Positions 41,483-49,512 of a DNA stretch of 64,000 nt are shown in pieces (position 1 is the stretch's first letter; each line of letters opens with the position of its first letter). The position numbers and the translations under genes are program-made. The stretch covers positions 62,001 through 126,000 of the forward strand of contig JACQZU010000003.1 of NCBI GenBank assembly GCA_016213735.1, given 5' to 3'. The stretch is from Acidobacteriota bacterium (lineage in GTDB: Bacteria; Acidobacteriota; Holophagae; Holophagales; Holophagaceae). The notes below the pieces were generated by a model. It was not told where the DNA came from, ran no database searches, and saw nothing but the letters and a program-made list of their open reading frames with translations.

Positions 41483-42376
41483 TCAGGACTTCCGGGACAA
41501 GCGGTCCATGGCGGCCTTCATGCTCACCCGCATCCGTTCCAGCACGTCCGCCAGGGCGCCGATCTCGTCCTTGGAGGTGGACACGATCTTTTCCTCCACG
41601 TCCCCGTCCGCCATGCGTCCCGCGATGCGGGTGAAGGTGGTGAGGGGCCGCAGCACGATCTTCGCGGTGAAGAGGACGGCGAAGGTGGACACCAGGAGGC
41701 CGCCCAGCATGAAGATCACCGACTGGATCAGGTTTTCCTTCTTGGCGGCGTCCAGGGCGCTGGAGAGCAGGCCGATGCGGAAGTTCCCCCAGTGCCGGCC
41801 CTTGACCATGACCGGGGAGGAGATGTCCAGGGCCAGTTCCCCGGTGTCCCGGGCGTAGGTCTGGACGAAGCCCTCCTGCCGGTTCCGGGCTGCGGCCAGC
41901 CCCACGGGGTCGTTGAAGATCCGCTTGGTGCGGTTGCCGGCCTTGTCCTTCTCCCGGTCGCCCGTGATGGGCTGCTGGTACTTGGAGTTGTGGGTCGGCA
42001 GGTAGCCGTTGGCGTCCACCACGATGGCGTAGAGGCAGTTGGGATTCTTCATGTACTCGTCCTGGAGGGCCAGGAGAGCCTTGTCGGTGTAGAAGTCGTA
42101 CTTGGTGTGGTACTTGGGGGGATCGAAGTTGGGGATCTGGACGTAGTCGCGGTCGAAGGCGTCCTGGACGGTGAAGACCCCGTTGTCGATGGCCTCCTCC
42201 ATGACGCGGCCCACGGCCTTGGCGGCGGTCTGGGACATGAACTTCCCGTCGGCCACGAACTGGGACATGAGGCGCTGGTTCTGCTGGTTGACGAGGATGG
42301 CCGTCCCCAGGGCCATCACCACCAGGAGGATGGTGTTGGCCACGAAGGCGACCTTGAAGCTGACGGTGCGGAACAT
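41483..42376 (-). CDS. Membrane-anchored sensor with HAMP domain and no output domain
   Basis: A 297-aa protein. A short cytoplasmic tail, a transmembrane helix (near residues 12-28), a periplasmic sensor domain (about 30-200) with the motif PTHNSKYQQPITGDREKDKA, a second TM (near 208-228) and a HAMP domain (about 229-285, LRPLTTFTRIAGRMADGDVEEKI) are visible. It ends soon after HAMP, so the methyl-accepting or other output domain of normal receptors is missing. ATG 42376 is chosen over an upstream Pro-rich stretch. The secreted paralogue is the next gene upstream. Confidence 0.8.
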   Translation of the reverse strand: MFRTVSFKVAFVANTILLVVMALGTAILVNQQNQRLMSQFVADGKFMSQTAAKAVGRVMEEAIDNGVFTVQDAFDRDYVQIPNFDPPKYHTKYDFYTDKALLALQDEYMKNPNCLYAIVVDANGYLPTHNSKYQQPITGDREKDKAGNRTKRIFNDPVGLAAARNRQEGFVQTYARDTGELALDISSPVMVKGRHWGNFRIGLLSSALDAAKKENLIQSVIFMLGGLLVSTFAVLFTAKIVLRPLTTFTRIAGRMADGDVEEKIVSTSKDEIGALADVLERMRVSMKAAMDRLSRKS

Positions 42377-42426
42377 GGACGGGCTCCTATGGGAAGGGTC
42401 GAGGGGGGGCGGGCAGGGAGGAGGCC

Positions 42427-43035
42427 TCACTCCTTCCGGAAGCCCACGCGCACGCAGCCCCAGTGCCGGCCGCCGACGTACACGGGCACGCTGAGGTCGT
42501 ACATGGTCTCCCCGGTGTCCCGCTGGTACTCCTGCAGGAGGTGGGGGGCCGTGTTGCGGGAGGCCGCGAGGCCCGTGCGGTCGTTGAACATCAGCTTCGT
42601 GCGGTTGCCCTTGGCGTCCTTCTCCCGGTTGCCGGTGAGGGGTTTGGTGAAGGCGCTGTTGTGGGTGGGGACGTAGCCGTTGAGGTCGGAAAGGATGAAG
42701 AAGACGAAGCGGGGGTGCTTGCCCAGGTAGTCGTCCAGCAGGGGCCGGAGGGCTTCATCGAAAACCCGGTCGTACTGCGTGTGGAATTTCTGGGGATAGG
42801 TGTTGGGGATGGGAACGTAGAAGGTGTCGAAGACCTGGGCCTGGGTGAGTTTCCCGCTGGCCACCAGGGCCTCGATCCGCCGCACGGCCTCGTCCCGGCA
42901 CTCCAGGGCCAGGCTCCGGACGCGGAACTCGAAGCTCCGGGGGTCCAGCCCCGGCGGCGGCGCGGCGGTGAGCAGCCCGGGGCCGAGCAGGGAGGCGCCC
43001 AGCAGGAGGGCGGGGGCCAGGTTCAAGGTGCGCAT
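42427..43035 (-). CDS. Secreted stand-alone sensor domain protein
   Basis: A 202-aa exported protein. A signal peptide (MRTLNLAPALLLGASLLGPGLLTAAPPPG) is followed by a domain similar to the periplasmic part of the neighbouring HAMP protein, sharing PTHNS, TGxREKD, GNRTK and FNDRTGLAASRN. AAGGAG lies before ATG 43035. It lacks any membrane anchor beyond the signal. It may be a soluble ligand-binding form of the same receptor domain. Confidence 0.8.
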   Translation of the reverse strand: MRTLNLAPALLLGASLLGPGLLTAAPPPGLDPRSFEFRVRSLALECRDEAVRRIEALVASGKLTQAQVFDTFYVPIPNTYPQKFHTQYDRVFDEALRPLLDDYLGKHPRFVFFILSDLNGYVPTHNSAFTKPLTGNREKDAKGNRTKLMFNDRTGLAASRNTAPHLLQEYQRDTGETMYDLSVPVYVGGRHWGCVRVGFRKE

Positions 43036-43054
43036 GCCGCAGCTCCTTTCCGAT

Positions 43055-43414
43055 TCAGTCCGGGGAGAGGGTTTCTTTCCAGGCGGCCACCCGGGCCAGC
43101 AGCTCGGAGCCGATGGCATCCTTCTTCTGGAAGAATCCGAGCGCGCTGCCGCCGAGGGGGACCACCAGGAACCGCTCCCCGGCGCGGCGCTGGAAGAGGG
43201 CGTGGTTCAGGTCCGGGGACCCCAGTTCTGCCCCGATGGCGCGACCGCACGCGGCGCAGACCGCGACCAGGGCCGCCAGGCCCTCCGTGTCCTCGGCGTC
43301 GTGGGACAGCACCTGGCCCTGGGGACCCACCAGGACATGGCGGCCGACGCCGGGGATCTCCGAGAAGTGGGCGAGCTGGATGGGGTCGGGGAACACGGCG
43401 GCGTCCGGGGGCAT
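43055..43414 (-). CDS. Roadblock/LC7-like protein
   Basis: A 119-aa protein. Its features (FSEIPGVGRHVLVGPQGQVLSHDAEDTEGLAALVAVCAACGRAIGAEL) match the roadblock/LC7 fold, known for small GTPase regulation and scaffold roles in bacteria. The first codon overlaps the stop of the preceding roadblock-like gene. It is probably a small cytosolic partner of the kinase encoded upstream. Confidence 0.7.
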   Translation of the reverse strand: MPPDAAVFPDPIQLAHFSEIPGVGRHVLVGPQGQVLSHDAEDTEGLAALVAVCAACGRAIGAELGSPDLNHALFQRRAGERFLVVPLGGSALGFFQKKDAIGSELLARVAAWKETLSPD

Positions 43415-44079
43415 CAGGGCAGGGCTTCGACCATGTTCCGGTAGCGGGCGGCCTTTTCGGGGTCGTCGATCTCCCGGAGCACGAGGTTCAGGAGGCTCCC
43501 GAGGTTGTCCTTGGAGGGCTCGTTGAGCTGGAGCCACTTCTCGAGGCACTCGGTGAACACGATCTTGGCCATGGGACCCATCACCTTGGCCAGGGCGCTC
43601 TGCATGCCCAGGAGGGCCGGGGCCAGGGAGCCGCGCTCCATGAGGTCCCGTGGGGTCAGGGGGGCCCGGGCCCCGGTGGCCGGTCCCGGGGCAGGGGCTT
43701 CGAGCGCCTGGGGGCGCGCCCGCTCCTGGGCCGCCGGGGACTCCAGGAAGCTTTTCAGGTCGTCCATGAGCAGGTTGACGGTGAGGGTGGCGAGGTGGAC
43801 GTTCAGGTCCGGGGCGCCCAGCAGCACCAGCCAGGCCTTCTCCGCGATGGGCCGGGCCATCACCGTGGACTCGTCGTAGGCCAGCACCACGTCGCTCACC
43901 TCCTGGAGCGTCATGGCCCCGGCGGCGTGGACCTTGGAGAGCTGCTTGCCCATGGCCAGCAGGCGGGCGGGCTTGAAGAGGGCCGGGAGCGTGTTCTCCA
44001 GGATGGCCCCCGGGAGCTGGTAGATGTACGCGCCGGTCAGGCCGGGCACGCTGGCGAACTCTTGCAGGACGTTTTCCAT
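43414..44079 (-). CDS. Roadblock/LC7-like domain protein
   Basis: A 221-aa protein. The N-terminal ~110 residues (LQEFASVPGLTGAYIYQLPGAILENTLPALF ... PDLNVHLATLTVNLLMDDLK) resemble the roadblock fold. A Pro/Ala linker follows (residues 125-145), then a helical tail ending in YRNMVEALP. ATG 44079 fits the start of the domain. It lies between the kinase gene (20 bp upstream) and the smaller roadblock gene, which it overlaps. Confidence 0.65.
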   Translation of the reverse strand: MENVLQEFASVPGLTGAYIYQLPGAILENTLPALFKPARLLAMGKQLSKVHAAGAMTLQEVSDVVLAYDESTVMARPIAEKAWLVLLGAPDLNVHLATLTVNLLMDDLKSFLESPAAQERARPQALEAPAPGPATGARAPLTPRDLMERGSLAPALLGMQSALAKVMGPMAKIVFTECLEKWLQLNEPSKDNLGSLLNLVLREIDDPEKAARYRNMVEALP

Positions 44080-44098
44080 GGGGGATCCAGGGTTGGAA

Positions 44099-45421
44099 TC
44101 AGGCTTCGGGAAGGTCCAGGCCGGCGAGGGCCTCCAGGACGGAGGCGGGCGAGGCCCCGGGCCGGAGGGCGAAGGCGATGGCCAGGTGTCCCTTCCGCAG
44201 GGACAGCACCTGCACGCGCTTGGGCGAGCGGAACAGCACGCTCCGGACGGGCACATTTCCCCCGGGGTCCGGGAGCCCGGCCGCCAGGTCGAGCACCGGG
44301 GCGGGTTCGAAGGAGCCGAGGACATGGCGATGGGCCGAGGCCGAAACCACCGTGGCCCCTTGCTGGACGACCACTTCCGCCACGCCGGGAAGACCTTCCA
44401 GCTGGCGCAGGAGGCGGCGGAGGGTCTCCGGAGCCGGAGCGGGCGGAGGCGGGGCGGACGGCGGGGCCGGGTCCTCCGCCGGCGTGGGCTGGATGGGGCG
44501 GGTGGCCCGGGGGGAGGGCGCGTGGCGCCTCGCCATCAAGGCCTCCACCCCTTCCAGGGGGACGGGCCGGCCGTCCAGGAAGGCCAGGAGGGCGTCGAGG
44601 CGGTCCTCCTCCAGGGGGGAGGCGGCGATCAGGACCCCCATGAAGTCGTGGAGATTGGAGAAGCGCTGCTCGGGATCCCGGTCCAGAGCCTTGGCGAAGA
44701 CCCGCTGCATCACCTCGGGCATGTCCTCGGGGAACACCGGATCGGACCAGTCCCCGGCGGCCGCGGCCTCCCCGTCCTTCGGGCCGGGGAAGGGCAGGCG
44801 CCCCGTGAGGGTCTGGAAGGCGGTGGCGGCGAAGGAGAAGAGTTCGGATTTGGGCGAGGGGAGTTCCCCCCGCAGCAGCTCGGGCGCGGTGTAGCCGGGA
44901 GACCCCACCGCCGGTCCGGGGCCCAGGCGGGAGGCGAGGTTCCGGCTCGCGCCGAAATCCATGAGCTTGAGGGTTCCCCGGGGATCCACCCAGAGGTTGT
45001 CGGGCTTGAGATCCCCGTGGAGGATGCCCTCCCGGGCCGCCGATTCCAGGACGTGCATCAACTGGATCAGGAGGTGCAGGGCGGTGAAGGGAGGCAGGCC
45101 GTCCTGCAGCAGGGCGCCCAGGGGCAGGCCCTCCTGGTACTCCAGGACCAGGTAGGGGCCGAAGGCCTCGTCGTGCTCCAGCTCCAGGACCCGGCGAACT
45201 CCCGGGTGGCGGAGGCGGAGCGTGGTCTCCCACTCCCTCTGGAAGCTCTCCGCCAGCGCGGTCCCGTCGCTGCCGGGCAGGGCGGTCTTCAGGGCCACCT
45301 GCCCCCAGGTCTTGGGGTCGCTGGCCAGGTAGACCATGTGGCTGGCGCTCCGTCCCAGGACGCGCGTCACCTGGAAGCGTCCGATGGACAGGGGGGGCGT
45401 AGCCATGGAGGGATGGTTCAC
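44099..45421 (-). CDS. Serine/threonine protein kinase with C-terminal roadblock-like domain
   Basis: A 440-aa Hanks-type kinase. The domain spans about residues 13-275: the Gly-rich loop is degenerate (LGRSASHMVYLA), the Lys is K45 in VALK, the catalytic loop is HGDLKPDN (HGD instead of HRD), and the metal-binding DFG is in LMDFGAS. A Pro-rich linker (about 305-335) leads to a roadblock-like domain (LRRLLRQLEGLPGVAEVVVQQGATVVSASAHRHVL) to the end. GTG 45421 is used; ATG 45406 is an alternative. It heads the roadblock and sensor gene cluster. No transmembrane segment is seen. Confidence 0.85.
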   Translation of the reverse strand: MNHPSMATPPLSIGRFQVTRVLGRSASHMVYLASDPKTWGQVALKTALPGSDGTALAESFQREWETTLRLRHPGVRRVLELEHDEAFGPYLVLEYQEGLPLGALLQDGLPPFTALHLLIQLMHVLESAAREGILHGDLKPDNLWVDPRGTLKLMDFGASRNLASRLGPGPAVGSPGYTAPELLRGELPSPKSELFSFAATAFQTLTGRLPFPGPKDGEAAAAGDWSDPVFPEDMPEVMQRVFAKALDRDPEQRFSNLHDFMGVLIAASPLEEDRLDALLAFLDGRPVPLEGVEALMARRHAPSPRATRPIQPTPAEDPAPPSAPPPPAPAPETLRRLLRQLEGLPGVAEVVVQQGATVVSASAHRHVLGSFEPAPVLDLAAGLPDPGGNVPVRSVLFRSPKRVQVLSLRKGHLAIAFALRPGASPASVLEALAGLDLPEA

Positions 45422-48195: not shown

Positions 48196-49512
48196 ATGTT
48201 CGGTCTCATGCGGACCCGGATCGCGGCCCAGCCGCCGGAGGCCAGGGAGGCCCGGCGCCTGGCCTACTGCGGCACCTGCAAGGCCCTCGGGGCCGGTTAC
48301 GGCCAGCGGGCCCGCCTGCTGCTCAGCCATGACGCGGTGTTCCTGGCCGAGCTGCTGGAGGCCCTCGATCCTTCGCCGGGTCCCGCCGACCCCGGGCTCC
48401 GCTCCTACAACTGCCTGGCCCGCCCCGAGGCGCTGCCCCTTGCCCTGCGCTTCGCGGCCGCGGCCAACGTCTTCCTGGCCGAGGGACTGCTGGCCGACCG
48501 CCTTCTGGATGCGCCGGGTCCGGGGACCCGCCTCGCGGGCCGCCTGCTGGAGGAACCCTTCCGCCGCGCCGCCGCGGACCTCGAGGCCTGGGGCGTGCCG
48601 GTGGACCGGATCCGGGACCTCCTGGCCACCCAGGAGGGGCGGGAGGCCCGCGCCCGGGAGGGGGTCCGCTCCCCCGAGCAGAGCCTCCTGGACCTCGCCG
48701 AACCCACCGCCGAGGGCAGCGCCCTCCTCTTCGCCGCGGCCGCCCGGCGGGTGGGCCGGCCCGATGCGGAACGAAGCATGGAGGCCCTGGGTCGGGCCTT
48801 CGGCCTCCTGGTCTACCTCCTGGACGCCTACGAGGACGAGGCCAGGGACGCCCGCCGGGGCGAGTTCAACGCCTTCCTCGCGGCCTACGCCGGCGCTCCC
48901 GGTCCCGAGGCCCGGGCCGCCTACCGGCGCCGCCTGCGCGGCGCCGGCGCCGCGGTGGCCGGGGCCCTGGCCGACCTGCCGCTGCCGGGCCCGATCCGTG
49001 GGCGCCTGGAACAGCGCCTGAACGCCAACCTGGCCCTCCGCCTGGGGGATTCCGAAGCCTGCGGCTGCCCCTCCAGGACCCCCGGGCTCCGGGCCCTGGC
49101 GCGTCGCGGGCTGGAACGGGCCCGGGAGGTCGCCGAGTCCACCGCGCCCGGCGCCCCTTCCTGGCTGCGCGCCCTCCTGGCGCCCCCCGCCTTCCTGCTG
49201 ATCCTTCCCCTGGCCCTGGTCTGGCCCGCCTGGGTTCCCCGGGGCCGCGGCTTCCGGGAGGCCCTGGGGCTGGCCTTCAACCTCATGGTGGTCGGCGAGG
49301 CGGGACGCCTCCTGCTGAGGCCCCTCCGCTTCGCCGCAGGACCCGAGGATCCCTCCGGCCTGGCCGGCGCGGCCACCGAGGCCGTCGCCGAGCACGTGAA
49401 GAAGAAGGGCCACGGCGGGGGCGGGGGCTGCTGCGACGCCTGCGACTGCTGCGACAGTTGCGACTGCTGCGATTCCTGCAATTGCTGCGACAGCTGCGAC
49501 TGCGACTGCTAG
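48196..49512 (+). CDS. DUF5685-like protein with Cys-rich CDCC-repeat tail
   Basis: A 438-aa protein. The N-terminal half resembles the DUF5685 family: LAYCGTCKALGAGYGQRARLLLSHDAVFLAELLEAL, SYNCLARPEALPLALRFAAAANV and VYLLDAYEDEARDARRGEFNAF. A hydrophobic segment (about residues 330-350, LLAPPAFLLILPLALVWPAW) is near the end. The last 27 residues consist of CDxC/CCDS repeats with about 15 Cys, a likely metal-binding tail. The family has no known function to me. The tail could chelate Fe, Zn or Cu. Confidence 0.7.
   Translation: MFGLMRTRIAAQPPEAREARRLAYCGTCKALGAGYGQRARLLLSHDAVFLAELLEALDPSPGPADPGLRSYNCLARPEALPLALRFAAAANVFLAEGLLADRLLDAPGPGTRLAGRLLEEPFRRAAADLEAWGVPVDRIRDLLATQEGREARAREGVRSPEQSLLDLAEPTAEGSALLFAAAARRVGRPDAERSMEALGRAFGLLVYLLDAYEDEARDARRGEFNAFLAAYAGAPGPEARAAYRRRLRGAGAAVAGALADLPLPGPIRGRLEQRLNANLALRLGDSEACGCPSRTPGLRALARRGLERAREVAESTAPGAPSWLRALLAPPAFLLILPLALVWPAWVPRGRGFREALGLAFNLMVVGEAGRLLLRPLRFAAGPEDPSGLAGAATEAVAEHVKKKGHGGGGGCCDACDCCDSCDCCDSCNCCDSCDCDC

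Follow-up and report, generated by a model that had tools for sequence, protein, structure and literature searches.

Described roadblock systems and the locus under study

In actinobacteria, conservons (CvnA-D) are operons that encode a HAMP-containing membrane sensor together with one or more roadblock proteins, the sensor CvnA being itself a histidine kinase, and that also include a small GTPase (CvnD) and CvnC (PMC4316618, PMC13343842). Loci combining PATAN (DUF4388) and roadblock domains in the vicinity of MglA were described by Makarova (2006) and Wuichet (2014), as cited in PMC4316618. In eukaryotes, the roadblock dimers of LAMTOR/Ragulator (MP1-p14) are membrane-tethered platforms of kinase signalling linked to Rag GTPases. 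Here, we analyse a 64,000-nucleotide stretch of DNA (the window) from a Holophagaceae member of the Acidobacteriota, in which five consecutive minus-strand genes at positions 41483-45421 form one signalling locus (Table 1): a Ser/Thr kinase with a roadblock-like C-terminus (K), a roadblock protein with an additional tail domain (RB1), a single-domain roadblock protein (RB2), a secreted sensor (SS) and a membrane-bound copy of that sensor which ends shortly after its HAMP domain (TM; the HAMP stub). We judge it as likely as not that this locus specifies a split transmembrane receptor with an exchangeable effector held by roadblock domains.

As in conservons, a HAMP-containing membrane sensor is encoded in an operon with roadblock proteins, and one of the best fold matches of RB1 is a Streptomyces avermitilis roadblock (3kye). 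However, the five genes include neither a CvnA-type histidine kinase, TM being output-less, nor a CvnD-type GTPase, and comprise three roadblock domains, a tail domain and a secreted sensor. The roadblock fold is also shared with the MglA/MglB polarity module, a canonical pair of which is encoded elsewhere in the host genome, whereas the window roadblocks appear to form a separate family, with no MglB-family member and no linked MglA-like GTPase. Among the relatives of the window module, PATAN-roadblock and REC-PATAN-roadblock loci predominate, and a histidine kinase often accompanies them; the window locus differs from PATAN-roadblock loci in having no GTPase and a Ser/Thr kinase in place of PATAN, and in the addition of the HAMP stub, the tail domain and the sensor pair. 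Cache-like sensing and a HAMP relay recall two-component systems and chemoreceptors, and a histidine kinase and a receiver (REC) domain occur among the relatives in Desulfobacterota, but no histidine kinase, receiver or methyl-accepting chemotaxis protein (MCP) signalling domain was detected with Pfam among the five window genes. The resemblance to LAMTOR/Ragulator, p14/MP1 of which is among the fold matches of RB1, is confined to fold and principle.

The open-access papers retrieved on roadblock domains associated with HAMP, PATAN or kinase domains concerned conservons, MglAB, Ragulator or unrelated work only, and no description of a module combining a HAMP stub, the tail and the sensor pair was found in open-access papers, most subscription journals lying outside the search. 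The proximity of PATAN and roadblock domains is already known from previous surveys of genomes (PMC4316618), whereas the HAMP stub, tail and sensor pair are apparently undescribed. An earlier note on this DNA, made from the letters alone, had found the layout unlike known pathways; the locus is not isolated, being one variant of a recurring module.

Conservation of the locus in Acidobacteriota and Desulfobacterota

All 5 genes are present in the same order in G033, a member of the Holophagaceae from another genus, with identities to the window of 59% (RB1), 48% (RB2), 77% (TM), 70% (SS) and 44% (K). Public genomes scanned with the TM alignment yielded 20 loci, from G033, mostly Desulfuromonadia and other Desulfobacterota, one Anaeromyxobacter and one other member of the Acidobacteriota (G112), and SS adjoins TM in all 20. 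The order X-RB, RB1, RB2, SS, TM, X there being REC-DUF4388, is found in 9 Desulfobacterota loci, and locus L123 has the last 4 genes only. Because the five-gene order recurs in G033 and the RB1-RB2-SS-TM order in Desulfobacterota, the locus is more than a chance assembly. The view of the earlier note that five consecutive genes form one signalling locus, to be given up if they were not kept together in relatives, is thus borne out by the gene calls and by the order in G033 and Desulfobacterota. Of the several starts that it describes as overlapping or abutting, a single pair overlaps: the RB1 stop and RB2 start have one base in common (TGATG), and the gaps along K-RB1-RB2-SS-TM are 19, −1, 19 and 50 nt.

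Three later loci show this order too, the first place being taken by a REC-PATAN-RB protein in L176 and by PATAN proteins in L177 and L178. In L114, the first protein consists of REC and DUF4388 domains and a C-terminus homologous to that of K, and a gene for a PAS histidine kinase lies upstream. Given the homology of the C-termini of K and X and the same gene order, the window kinase occupies the place of REC-PATAN (DUF4388) in relatives, with the effector varying by lineage. Both the window and G033 encode a roadblock-tail protein, an output-less HAMP receptor and an X-roadblock protein, the parts by which the module is defined; the window locus is one variant of this module, which recurs in Desulfobacterota and Acidobacteriota.

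Related domains occur elsewhere in the host genome. Outside the window, L040:7746-9277 (C23) encodes a PATAN-roadblock protein and a tail-less RB1-like protein, with no HAMP stub nearby; a PilT-like ATPase gene lies just beyond and CheA/CheW-like genes upstream (names read from sequence). At C12:219931-221061 (L213), a DUF4388 frame adjoins the gene of a protein in which HAMP is followed by 211 residues; this may be another PATAN-linked receptor.

Linkage of the RB1 tail to output-less HAMP receptors

TM ends 12 residues past its Pfam HAMP match (35.7 bits), and no HisKA, HATPase or MCPsignal match was found in it with Pfam. At least 211 residues follow each of the 19 further HAMP stretches found in this genome, TM alone being output-less. 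We considered TM as a truncated receptor gene and rejected this, since the same ending is common to the HAMP proteins of a first survey, 48 of 49 of which terminate no further than 12 residues from the stub model.

For the tail, loci were found with RB1 and tail profiles, HAMP playing no part in the selection, and a HAMP stub was sought within about 5 kb. A stub was present near 42 of the 50 tail-bearing loci (15/20; 17/20, with one of the three exceptions at a contig end; and 10/10 in Acidobacteriota), counts which are not independent, the hidden Markov models having been built partly from surveyed loci and the genomes being related, and to which we attach no probability. Roadblock loci with a tail-less RB1-like protein had a stub in none of 4 cases. 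Several tail proteins are free of roadblock domains, being winged helix-turn-helix-tail or PATAN-winged helix-turn-helix-tail proteins, and still lie beside a HAMP stub, and the linkage spans different sensor domains and phyla. No HAMP-roadblock fusion was found among the survey proteins. We take so tight a co-occurrence of the tail with output-less HAMP receptors as the strongest hint that the stub is read by the tail.

The same linkage bears on an alternative in which the TM stub would join full receptors encoded elsewhere, such as chemoreceptors or histidine kinases, in mixed HAMP dimers or arrays, the roadblock genes being only operon neighbours. HAMP domains are dimeric, and longer Holophagaceae proteins, among them an MCP of the host genome, do contain related sensor domains; that MCP, however, has its sensor at the C-terminus and no HAMP match, and a stub-tail linkage across sensor types and phyla is hard to obtain from operon sharing alone. 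We regard such action in trans as quite improbable.

Roadblock domains and the missing GTPase

RB2 matches Pfam Robl_LC7 with 23.8 bits, narrowly past the cut-off of 23 bits, and RB1 has no match in Pfam or NCBIfam. The RB1 profile matches solved roadblocks in the PDB (7f8m, E = 3e-4; 7yh1, E = 1e-3), and its AlphaFold model, computed from an alignment of 19 sequences (predicted local distance difference test score, pLDDT, 89.5), has the topology helix, two strands, helix, three strands, helix, followed by the separate five-helix tail, which contains a conserved GPMA motif. In Foldseek, the first part of this model matches solved roadblocks from Asgard archaea and Streptomyces as well as MglB and MP1-p14, with probability 1.00 and TM-scores, normalised by target, of up to 0.82; none of the listed matches, all being roadblock structures, accounts for the tail. 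Profiles, predicted structure and Foldseek together confirm a roadblock fold for the N-terminal part of the RB1 model. By hhalign, RB2 aligns with RB1 with probability 94, and the C-terminus of K aligns with the RB2 profile with probability 94.5 (E = 8e-8) and with the RB1 profile with probability 76, sensor-domain controls staying below 12; this profile-profile comparison indicates that the C-terminus of K is a roadblock domain as well. All three can be assigned to the roadblock/LC7 superfamily. The roadblock assignments of the earlier note thus survived the structure comparison that it had set as a test, and its kinase fused to a roadblock-like domain is upheld by the Pkinase match (103 bits) and hhalign. 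Its two roadblock proteins both have the fold, but RB1 also carries the tail domain, whose linkage to the HAMP stub is the tightest of all its parts.

Compared by hhalign with a narrow MglB profile from the same bacterial family, all three window roadblocks gave low probabilities. They resemble each other and, as judged from these comparisons, form a family separate from canonical MglB, by which the fold is not refuted. There is no GTPase among the five genes, and the relatives' neighbourhoods, as searched for all batches before the last, contained only a contig-edge fragment of an MglA-like gene (L183), indicating that the module does not include a GTPase. The GTPase that the earlier note had singled out as missing is indeed lacking from the locus, but its absence is general in the relatives searched rather than specific to this locus; the search of the rest of the genome that had been proposed revealed four MglA-like GTPases, one of them beside a canonical MglB. 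These findings allow an alternative in which RB1, RB2 and the K roadblock would act on an MglA-like GTPase encoded elsewhere, the receptor controlling hydrolysis or exchange as in MglA/MglB or the conservon. Regulation of GTPases by roadblock proteins such as MglB and the reported presence of PATAN proteins near some MglA genes (PMC4316618) fit this proposal, as do the four GTPases of the genome, whereas the absence of a GTPase at the locus, the single fragment in relatives and the dissimilarity of the three roadblocks to canonical MglB make it unlikely.

Kinases as one of several effectors

K retains the VALK, HGDLKPDN, DFG and APE motifs, with HGD where HRD is expected and a degenerate glycine loop, and is assigned by these motifs as a Ser/Thr (Hanks-type) kinase domain with catalytic residues. 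In the G033 ortholog, GFG replaces DFG and HGDLR replaces HGDLK, with loss of the DFG aspartate and an arginine for the catalytic-loop lysine. The G112 locus has a kinase encoded by a separate gene, and in G040 (L111:5331-8256), a REC-Ser/Thr kinase gene is followed by those for a tail protein and a HAMP stub; the motifs are intact in both. For the G040 kinase, sequence comparison allowed no roadblock assignment of the C-terminus. At least three variants of the module in Acidobacteriota thus include a kinase (window/G033, G112 and G040). In another version of this split-receptor layout, the kinase domain might be a pseudokinase scaffold that phosphorylates no substrates, a nucleotide-sensing or docking platform with output by conformation or recruitment. 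The substitutions in G033 and the glycine loop of K are what such a scaffold would predict, and the motifs retained in K and intact in G112 and G040 count against it, so that we hold this version to be possible, if doubtful.

The sensor pair

SS and the sensor domain of TM are 51% identical. The N-terminus of SS is signal-peptide-like (by inspection only), and its C-terminal end is the end of the sensor domain in the relatives aligned. The AlphaFold model of TM (pLDDT 88.8) retrieved Cache/extracytoplasmic PAS sensor domains of DcuS, WalK and Tlp3 in Foldseek, which confirms a Cache-like fold for the modelled sensor domain; the Pfam sCache_3_2 match was below the cut-off, and comparing the sensor alignment with solved structures gave nothing convincing. 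The initial description of a secreted sensor with a HAMP-linked copy lacking an output domain is in accord with the identity of the two domains and the ending of TM.

In the sensor-domain tree, in which some support values are low and the rooting on distant MCP sensors is weak, SS and TM form separate clades with the same main internal arrangement: each contains the window and G033, adjoining Desulfobacterota, with G112 and Anaeromyxobacter outside. Because the clades mirror each other, SS and TM were inherited together, and a single ancient duplication followed by joint inheritance explains the tree. Two SS/TM sensor pairs stand in tandem at one locus of an Anaeromyxobacter metagenome-assembled genome (L173:270-3573). 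In the host genome, an MCP signalling protein (L043:6778-8373, C13) bears a C-terminal domain related to the SS/TM sensor and lacks HAMP.

Proposed mechanism

In the split-receptor reading, a periplasmic ligand sensed by the Cache-like domain of TM would move the HAMP domain, and SS, the soluble twin of TM, would tune sensing, either as a buffer for the ligand, as a competitor or as a hetero-partner. As TM lacks an output domain, the HAMP stub would be read by the separate adaptor RB1, in contact with it through the five-helix tail, and the effector's roadblock domain and those of RB1 and RB2 would pair mutually and hold the exchangeable effector at the receptor. The effector would here be the Ser/Thr kinase on its homologous roadblock domain, in most relatives a PATAN-roadblock or REC-PATAN-roadblock protein; the signal would run from ligand to effector, and the kinase would presumably be catalytic and act on a downstream target. 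More broadly, there may be an undescribed bacterial class of split receptors, in which output-less Cache-HAMP receptors hand their signal to a separate adaptor with a new five-helix domain for reading HAMP, and REC-PATAN, PATAN or Ser/Thr kinase effectors have been exchanged in evolution on a roadblock-dimer chassis, a proposal that we consider evenly poised between right and wrong.

Several observations weigh against this reading, besides the interdependence of the survey counts. The motif losses of the G033 kinase suggest that catalysis there may be dispensable, the glycine loop of K is degenerate, and full-length K was matched in only two genomes of the 77-genome family, among the matches listed. 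In one batch, 5 of 20 loci have a tailed RB1 with no HAMP stub nearby, and RB1 may serve without a local receptor. A HAMP-tail fusion was sought among the survey proteins and not found.

Table 1. Genes and domains of the signalling locus (window coordinates)
Feature	Position	Strand	Basis
K, Ser/Thr kinase-roadblock fusion, 440 aa	44099..45421	-	Pfam Pkinase, 103 bits
K, kinase domain	about 44657-45376	-	Pfam
K, roadblock-like C-terminus	about 44102-44434	-	profile-profile comparison
RB1, roadblock and tail protein, 221 aa	43414..44079	-	profile matches, AlphaFold, Foldseek
RB1, roadblock domain	about 43735-44079	-	
RB1, five-helix tail domain	about 43426-43653	-	AlphaFold, residues 143-218
RB2, single roadblock domain, 119 aa	43055..43414	-	Pfam Robl_LC7, hhalign
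SS, secreted sensor, signal peptide and single Cache-like domain, no membrane anchor, 202 aa	42427..43035	-	
TM, transmembrane helix, Cache-like domain, transmembrane helix, HAMP, 297 aa	41483..42376	-	
HAMP of TM, sole cytoplasmic module of the receptor	41522..41671	-	Pfam, residues 236-285

K starts with GTG, with GGAAAG upstream. Outside the locus, the protein encoded at window positions 48196-49512 on the plus strand ends in a dense cysteine cluster (...CCDACDCCDSCDCCDSCNCCDSCDCDC).

Implications

HAMP domains have usually been studied as relays within a protein. The module suggests a widespread layout in which the relay stops at the membrane protein, a separate adaptor reads it and roadblock domains, to which no GTPase is linked, provide the coupling. 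If true, bacterial roadblock proteins would have a role independent of GTPases, and the tail offers a candidate HAMP-reading domain. The Ser/Thr kinase that stands in place of the relatives' REC-PATAN protein, with a histidine kinase upstream in some of them, provides a natural comparison, and the module is open to experiment because an isolate, Geothermobacter hydrogeniphilus HR-1, carries related parts.

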